DNA of 64,000 bases. It comes from Nitrosopumilus sp. K4. GTDB lineage: Archaea > Thermoproteota > Nitrososphaeria > Nitrososphaerales > Nitrosopumilaceae. The translations under genes and the position numbers were made by a program. The notes below the pieces were generated by a model. The model was not told the origin of the DNA. It searched no databases and saw only the letters and a list, made by a program, of their open reading frames with translations. This document shows positions 8,162 to 9,604 of the stretch, in pieces (positions within the stretch are counted from its first letter, which is position 1; every line of letters begins with the position of its first letter). The stretch is from contig NZ_CP067007.1 in assembly GCF_018128925.1 (NCBI RefSeq), positions 1,516,330 to 1,580,329 on the forward strand, given 5' to 3'.

Positions 8162-8194
8162 TGTCTACCTTCATCCTTTTTTTGTTGGTAGACA
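8162..8194 (-). promoter_or_regulatory. Riboswitch expression platform: hairpin at the crcB start codon
   Basis: On the crcB strand TGTCTACC (8187-8194) is perfectly complementary to GGTAGACA (8162-8169), which abuts the ATG. The 17-base loop contains AAAGGATGAA, the likely ribosome binding site. The 5' arm is also the 3' end of the aptamer, including part of the pseudoknot strand. The two folds exclude each other, so fluoride binding should free the start region. A translational switch is inferred; the pairing is seen directly. Confidence 0.75.
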
Positions 8195-8251
8195 TTATCA
8201 GTGTAGTTAAACACGGTTTAGGTATACAATACCAAGGCTAATGTCATAGCC
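8187..8251 (-). ncRNA. Fluoride riboswitch (crcB RNA) aptamer
   Basis: Read on the minus strand: stem GGCT/AGCC closing an ATGACATT loop (8236-8251); a small extra hairpin GGTAT/ATACC (8221-8233); AAACCG; a stem GTGT/ACAC (8201-8204 with 8211-8214); CTGAT; then AATGTC and TACC. The loop bases GACATT pair perfectly with AATGTC (8191-8196) as the pseudoknot. The order stem-ATGA loop, AAAC-G, hairpin, CTGAT, pseudoknot strand, TAC matches the known Thermotoga petrophila fluoride aptamer as I recall it, with one added hairpin. It begins at about the expected transcription start and lies in front of crcB. Confidence 0.9.
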
Positions 8252-8272
8252 AACTGTGATTTTTTTCTTATG

Positions 8273-8281
8273 ATTTTTATA
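8273..8281 (-). promoter_or_regulatory. TATA box of crcB, overlapping a divergent TATA
   Basis: TATAAAAAT on the minus strand, about 25 bases before the first base of the riboswitch. On the plus strand the overlapping TTTTTATAGG lies about 28 bases before the ATG at 8306. The two divergent genes therefore seem to share one AT-rich promoter core. Confidence 0.6.
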
Positions 8282-8305
8282 GGTTTGTTATTTTTTTGAG
8301 ACTAG

Positions 8306-8500
8306 ATGACCATAAAACTCCGATGTGAAGACTACGGTTTTGAGTGCAATTTTGTTCTAGAGGGAGAGAAAAGTGTTGGATTACTTGAACAGTTAAGAAA
8401 ACATTTTGAAGATGAACATGGAATTGATTATACAACTGAGGCAATTACTCAGATGATTATGAATCGTGGCCATTCATTAGAATCAATTAAAAAAGATTAA
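8306..8500 (+). CDS. DUF1059-type small protein
   Basis: 64 residues. It follows the pattern of the DUF1059 family: a Cys near the N-terminus (LRCEDYGFECNFVLEGE), then a helix with LLEQLRKHFEDEHGID. The CxxxGxxC and ExHG features suggest a small zinc- or metal-associated fold, but no function is established. The TATA element 28 bases upstream suggests a leaderless transcript. It is divergent from crcB and shares its promoter core; a link to fluoride is not shown. Confidence 0.75.
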   Translation: MTIKLRCEDYGFECNFVLEGEKSVGLLEQLRKHFEDEHGIDYTTEAITQMIMNRGHSLESIKKD

Positions 8501-8668
8501 TTCTTTTCAGTTGTTTTTTGTTTTTAACATTTAATACAAAGTAAGTGGTACATAATTTAGAAAAGTTCTAAATTTTTAAGGAATTTTCTGTTTATAAAAT
8601 TGCATTTTGATTACAAAATTACCTACAACAATTTGCTTTTATCTGATAAACACCATACTAAGTTAGTA

Positions 8669-9604
8669 GTGGTAGTAAATTATTCTAGTGATTATGATGT
8701 CAAGTGTCATCTTGATACTTGCAAAACCTACCCTGTCATTACAGATTCTGAAAGAGGAGAAATGTTTTGTGGGGGATGCGGGTTGGTATTGATACAAAAC
8801 ATAGCAGATGCTTCACATGAAAACAACGGTTACAGTCAAGAAGAATTTATGAAATTAGCTAGAACTGGTCCTGCAACTTCTTTGACTATGCATGACAAGG
8901 GTTTGTCAACAGTAATTGGCACAAATAAAGATTCTTCAGGAAATGCATTATCAAGTAAAACAAAATTTGAATTTAATAGACTCAGAACTTGGGATCAGCG
9001 AAGTAAATCAAGGAAAACTGCAACATTAAGCAAAGCATTTACTTTATTACACGGTATGAAAACAAAACTTGGAGTTTCAGATAACGTAGTTGAAAATGCT
9101 GCATATATTTACAGAAAAGTAGTTTCTGCAAGACTAACTAGAGGACGAACTATGGCTTCATTGGTTTCAGCTGCATTATATGCTTCATGTAGAGAAAACA
9201 ATATTCCTAGAACTTTGGATGATATTGCAAAAGCAGGAAATGTAGAGAGACGAATATTGTCAAGAGATTTGAGAACCATTATCAAAAAATTAGGATTAAG
9301 TTTGAATCAATATGATACCACATCTTTTATTTCAAAAATTTCGAACAACATGAATCTAAAGGAGAAAACAAAACGTGACGCATTTAAGATTCTTCAGAGA
9401 TGTGAAAAAGAAATGATTACTGCAGGCAAACATCCAGTCGCTCAGGCTGCTGCATCCTTATACATTGCATGTATAATGAATGGTGAAAAAATTAGTCAGA
9501 AGAAGTTTTCAGTAGAATCAGGGGTCAGCGATGTAACAATTAGGAATAGAGCCGTTTTAATCAAAAAAACTTTGAAAATTTTAGATGAAAATAGTGATCT
9601 TTAG
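8669..9604 (+). CDS. tfb: Transcription initiation factor IIB (TFB)
   Basis: TFB recruits RNA polymerase to the TBP-TATA complex. An N-terminal zinc ribbon is seen in CHLDTC...CGGCG, followed by the B-reader/linker region and two cyclin-like repeats: one with TRGRTMASLVSAALYASCRENNIPRTLDDIA, the second with HPVAQAAASLYIACIMNGE. The frame stays open up to a TTG at 8600. A TATA-like TTTATAAA at 8591-8598 would start transcription near 8620, so I prefer the GTG at 8669, with TTG 8633 as the other choice. Thaumarchaea carry several TFB paralogues. Confidence 0.93.
   Translation: MVVNYSSDYDVKCHLDTCKTYPVITDSERGEMFCGGCGLVLIQNIADASHENNGYSQEEFMKLARTGPATSLTMHDKGLSTVIGTNKDSSGNALSSKTKFEFNRLRTWDQRSKSRKTATLSKAFTLLHGMKTKLGVSDNVVENAAYIYRKVVSARLTRGRTMASLVSAALYASCRENNIPRTLDDIAKAGNVERRILSRDLRTIIKKLGLSLNQYDTTSFISKISNNMNLKEKTKRDAFKILQRCEKEMITAGKHPVAQAAASLYIACIMNGEKISQKKFSVESGVSDVTIRNRAVLIKKTLKILDENSDL

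Follow-up and report, generated by a model that had tools for sequence, protein, structure and literature searches.

Fluoride riboswitches form a class that is widespread in bacteria and archaea (PMC2864571). The roles of the conserved U41 and of the linchpin A40-U48 pair of the aptamer have been described, and in Bacillus cereus it is the linchpin pair that determines if the pseudoknot can be displaced by the expression platform (PMC11077080). The fluoride riboswitches of Pseudomonas syringae and Burkholderia pseudomallei have been named as translational controls (PMC13273304). Among archaea, a fluoride-responsive riboswitch of the euryarchaeal hyperthermophile Thermococcus kodakarensis has been tested and is presumably translational, going by the accounts of Speed et al. 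2018 given in PMC8241225 and PMC11077080; it lies upstream of TK0513, not of crcB (PMC4247193). As of 2021, only one natural archaeal riboswitch was described as experimentally determined (PMC8241225). Our literature search, with many subscription papers outside its reach, turned up no work on fluoride riboswitches in ammonia-oxidising archaea. Because translational members are known and the Thermococcus riboswitch has, by those accounts, been tested, the kind of element described here is already known. What we would add is comparative support for both of its folds across an archaeal class, together with apparent patterns of loss, platform change and multiplication.

The window, that is, the whole 64-kb stretch of Nitrosopumilus sp. 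K4 DNA that was analysed, encodes the CrcB (Fluc) fluoride exporter, and the leader before crcB is a fluoride riboswitch of the RF01734 class, predicted to sense fluoride. An Rfam covariance-model search matches it end to end with a slight margin of 2.4 bits over the curators' gathering cut-off. Two RNA matches in the window reach gathering level, this one and a tRNA, and in the whole genome it is the sole RF01734 match. As is usual for the class, the aptamer stands upstream of a fluoride-resistance gene: the crcB ORF, with its ATG at 8161-8159, follows directly downstream. The original prediction had placed a fluoride riboswitch here, and the significant Rfam match and the gene bear it out; all the element letters and coordinates that it gave are present on the minus strand. 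Read from 8251 to 8159, that strand runs GGCT ATGACATT AGCC TT GGTAT TGT ATACC TAAACC GTGT TTAACT ACAC TGAT AATGTC TACC (17 nt) GGTAGACA ATG, which contains the further core letters TAAACCG, CTGAT and TACC. By inspection the ligand-site letters, namely the ATG of the P1 loop and the positions of the conserved U41 and of the linchpin A40-U48 pair, are found at 8247-8245, 8198-8197 and 8190, and they include what we take to be the metal-site residues. Coordinates are collected in Table 1.

The Thermotoga petrophila and B. cereus aptamers likewise have P1, P2, a six-base pseudoknot, the ATG loop, CTGAT, UAC with the linchpin, and crcB downstream. The present leader differs from both in an extra hairpin, which lies between P1 and the AACCG junction, and from B. 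cereus in carrying a start-site helix where that leader has a terminator. With the P. syringae and B. pseudomallei switches it shares the order of aptamer and then putative translation control, with no intrinsic terminator; unlike them, it has an archaeal host and promoter. The T. kodakarensis switch, so far as the later accounts describe it, is alike in being archaeal, of the fluoride class and presumably translational.

Table 1. Elements of the crcB leader and gene (positions in the window)
Feature	Position	Strand	Evidence
Fluoride riboswitch aptamer (RF01734)	8182..8260	-	36.4 bits, gathering 34, E 2e-6
crcB (Fluc) fluoride exporter, 125 aa	7784..8161	-	Pfam CRCB PF02537, E 2e-21
TATA box TATAAAAA of the crcB transcript	8274..8281	-	About 30 nt before P1
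P1 hairpin GGCT/AGCC with ATG loop holding pseudoknot strand 1	8236..8251	-	All cells (100%) paired in 67 aligned leaders; 2/4 pairs change both sides
Pseudoknot strand 1 GACATT	8245-8240	-	In P1 loop; pseudoknot 99.8% paired
Extra hairpin GGTAT-TGT-ATACC	8221..8233	-	Outer three pairs covary in 71 distinct archaeal inserts
P2 hairpin GTGT/ACAC	8201..8214	-	82.9% of cells paired
Pseudoknot strand 2 AATGTC	8191..8196	-	6/6 complementary to loop strand
Switch helix 5' strand TGTCTACC	8187..8194	-	98.7% of cells paired in 67 selected leaders; three-way covariation
Switch helix 3' strand GGTAGACA, abuts start codon	8162..8169	-	Relatives' pairing; lost where aptamer decayed

Under strict filters RF01734 is found in at least 86 of 400 genomes of the class Nitrososphaeria, an undercount, because these filters missed even the K4 copy. 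For comparison we used 105 leaders scoring at least 24 bits. The perfect six-base pseudoknot that had been predicted recurs in 102 of these, with a second strand that varies among leaders (AATGTC, AATGCC, AGCTTC, AGCTCC, GACTCC, GAATCC and GATGCC). The pairing frequencies come from an alignment of 67 leaders, picked for having the switch helix described below, a choice that leaves P1, the extra hairpin and P2 untouched; the extra hairpin is paired in 81.7% of cells. Changes on both sides occur at 13 pairs in this alignment, as against 6.7 in shuffles, and the signal is gone when partners are slid. At one pseudoknot position the pair is AU in 38 leaders, GC in 24 and GU in five. Covariation thus backs P1, P2 and the pseudoknot, as in the RF01734 class.

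The extra hairpin was present as predicted; its presumed unusual status did not hold up. It is common to most Nitrososphaeria matches, though missing from family f4 and from most leaders of f21 and f22, and over the 71 distinct inserts its outer pairs read GC 66/AU 3, GC 59/AU 7 and CG 28/AU 21/UA 6/GC 3. Elsewhere, the gap between P1 and AACCG is mostly 2-4 nt among 76 listed aptamers, one of which is certainly archaeal, that were selected by pattern and then filtered for the pseudoknot; several have a stable hairpin there. Many long-gap pattern matches in a collection scan were chance ones, removed by requiring the pseudoknot. We have therefore rejected the hairpin as a novelty: it is general in these archaea, occurs in several bacterial aptamers and is a peripheral variation.

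Upstream of P1, TATA-like boxes peak at -30 to -25 from its first base across the 105 leaders, preceded by an A-rich stretch, which places the expected transcript start at P1. The K4 box fits this peak, in line with the expectation that the transcript starts at the aptamer. The intergenic region is shared with a divergent DUF1059 gene (8306-8500, plus strand), which is followed by a TFB (TFIIB-like) gene (8600-9604, plus strand).

An 8-bp alternative pairing, TGTCTACC/GGTAGACA, here also given as UGUCUACC/GGUAGACA, ends directly before the crcB ATG, and its 5' strand shares bases with pseudoknot strand 2 and with the conserved UAC, which contains the linchpin U. Taken alone, the pairing in the K4 leader could be due to chance (p about 0.055 when the downstream sequence is shuffled); it is convincing because of the relatives. 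Sixty-seven of 78 distinct leaders (the K4 leader and families f1, f3, f5, f11, f14 and f20, not chosen by helix) reach a helix score of at least 7; 2-6 do so with shuffled downstream sequence, and exchanging strands between leaders brings the mean to 39.5. When the helix was placed while leaving out each position in turn, pseudoknot position 5 had A as the partner of U in 41 leaders and G as the partner of C in 32; of the four exceptions, two are G-U. Within the helix-selected alignment (A1), the pseudoknot-covarying nucleotide forms UA in 41 switch helices and CG in 22. Across pseudoknot strand 1, strand 2 and switch strand, the three letters are A-U-A in 36 leaders, G-C-G in 22, G-U-A in five and A-U-G in two; no contradictory combination occurs in the 67-leader alignment where letters exist, so both folds act as constraints on one and the same nucleotide. 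Since a few clades account for most of the covariation, independent events are fewer than these counts.

The original prediction had described this start-codon pairing as excluding the pseudoknot, and the compensatory changes that it suggested looking for in relatives are found in both helices. They support two real and mutually exclusive folds, ON and OFF, as read from the aligned leaders. In the fold predicted without fluoride, GGUAGACA is paired with a probability near 1; with the aptamer strands blocked its first GG becomes free to about 0.73, and part of the rest pairs with the coding region. The fold prediction also paired CUAAACC in the aptamer with GGUUUAG, which lies in codons 3-5; we rejected this pairing as conserved because f3 genes read GGAATAG there and one genome, G028, keeps GGTTTGG without a riboswitch.

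In most leaders with a close ATG, the switch strand ends 0-2 nt before it or overlaps it. The helix also takes the U of the bound aptamer's linchpin pair. Sixteen leaders have G opposite this U in the switch strand, so that GGUG is formed while a wobble pair is retained. Selection for a Shine-Dalgarno-like GGUG next to an aptamer U that cannot change would be consistent with this. The 16S tail is ATCACCTCCTTAG (L270), and its best duplex with the K4 leader is AAGGATGAAGGT, at about -6 kcal/mol. Of this site only the GGU end lies under the switch, together with the bases that lead to the start codon. Within the window, 24% of ORFs have a Shine-Dalgarno duplex below -5 kcal/mol, compared with 5% in the control.

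On these alignments and predicted folds, we consider it very probable that the RF01734-class element turns crcB translation ON in fluoride. Transcription would start at P1 or no more than a few bases away. When fluoride is lacking, the pseudoknot's 3' strand and the UACC after it would pair with GGUAGACA before the AUG and cover the site where the ribosome lands. Once fluoride and Mg2+ are present, the pseudoknot and the linchpin pair would hold the shared strand and GGUAGACA would be free, so that CrcB could be made and fluoride exported. Since covariation backs both folds over the class, ammonia oxidisers included, exchange of a single base triple would put the mechanism to the test.

Transcription attenuation, with the switch hairpin acting as a terminator as in B. 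cereus, is very improbable here. The aptamer is of the same class, and transcriptional fluoride switches are well studied (PMC11077080, PMC13273304), but the 3' strand of the present switch is fixed against the start codon. Moreover, none of 74 leaders has a run of T4 or longer between the aptamer and the start region, a lack that is weak evidence since shuffles predict only about 2.7 such leaders. To our knowledge archaeal terminators need U-tracts, which counts against attenuation; the absence of a U-tract favours translational control, and translation would be the likelier step.

It is very improbable that the start-site helix is incidental, or a fixed hairpin that damps translation or stabilises the mRNA uncoupled from the aptamer. 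Such a helix would fold without the aptamer, and a short hairpin near the Shine-Dalgarno region seems, by eye, to be kept in some aptamer-less leaders of genus g3. Against this, the shared strand covaries with both partners together, and in family f4 the target at this position ahead of crcB is another aptamer strand, AACCGCTCG. The leader is most unlikely to be a decayed or inactive aptamer whose conserved letters are a relic, even though its score barely exceeds gathering, its P2 is short and decayed copies exist in one genome (G400) and in genus g3. True relics lose several elements at once, whereas here the core letters, pseudoknot pairs and switch complement are intact, as they are in three near-complete congeners. 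All the near-complete genomes of the genus (G000, G048, G110 and G243; more candidates were scored) have crcB with the riboswitch, and the pairing persists in their leaders; the combination of a non-significant Rfam score and lost pairings in close relatives, which would have spoken against the original prediction, did not occur.

Two designs of this switch can be told apart within the class. In 12 of 13 f4 leaders, a stretch of 8-11 bases ahead of the downstream gene (mostly crcB) pairs with AACCGCTCG, which comprises the aptamer junction and the 5' side of P2; the pseudoknot strand is not targeted. Reaching the same outcome by another strand suggests selection for coupling. Loss is seen as well. 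G400, a 60% complete genome, has AAGACATT as the loop, AATGTA as pseudoknot strand 2 and GGTAGCCA as the complement, and an AGGAGGT Shine-Dalgarno appears. The leaders of genus g3 can be aligned to the K4 leader, with P1, AACCG and the GGUAGACA complement eroded. These eroded aptamers (L283-L288 and L295-L297 in g3, L301 in G400) precede apparently intact crcB starts, and in both groups aptamer and switch complement decay together; the copies are natural controls for the joint loss of riboswitch and platform. The crcB genes of G028, G003 and G091, which lack a riboswitch, have no GGTAGACA ahead of them.

We lean towards reading the start-site-masking switch as an old device shared by the Nitrososphaeria, with exchangeable designs that use either the 3' pseudoknot strand (f1, f3, f5, f11, f14 and part of f20) or AACCGCTCG (f4). 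It would have been lost stepwise in g3 and G400. In genus g8 it would have multiplied, there leading operons that code for an extracytoplasmic protein (a cupredoxin or another protein), CrcB and DUF190, or standing in clusters of 6-8 copies. This wider pattern, with two platform types, loss in one genus and multiplication in another, is more interesting than the single copy.

The genes downstream of relatives' riboswitches include crcB, Na+/H+ exchanger, MutS-like and HAD genes. A Na+/H+ exchanger (PF00999) takes the place of crcB in several lineages (L063, L051, L071, L077, L072, L074, L075, L102 and L111). Genus g8 has riboswitch-headed operons (L271-L282; G037, G128, G133, G068, G115, G063, G151, G138 and G367) that encode a secreted or membrane protein, then CrcB and often a DUF190 protein. 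The first protein has a cupredoxin domain or belongs to a 391-aa family with no Pfam match. Within about 20 kb, at least six riboswitches lie together in L032-L033 (G086, contig C37, 54-73 kb) and at least eight in L034-L035 (G185, contig C57, 27-48 kb). They precede varied or very short ORFs, among them TFB-like and winged-helix ones and a TIR-domain ORF 124 nt on, and the clusters look like duplication of a leader cassette. In the g8 leaders L057, L059, L060, L064 and L066, the ATG that the switch abuts belongs to a short upstream ORF, located roughly 50-120 nt ahead of crcB. The first codons of this ORF (MNTKN..KQKLGW) are those of the 391-aa secreted protein in some genomes, which suggests transfer of the cassette.
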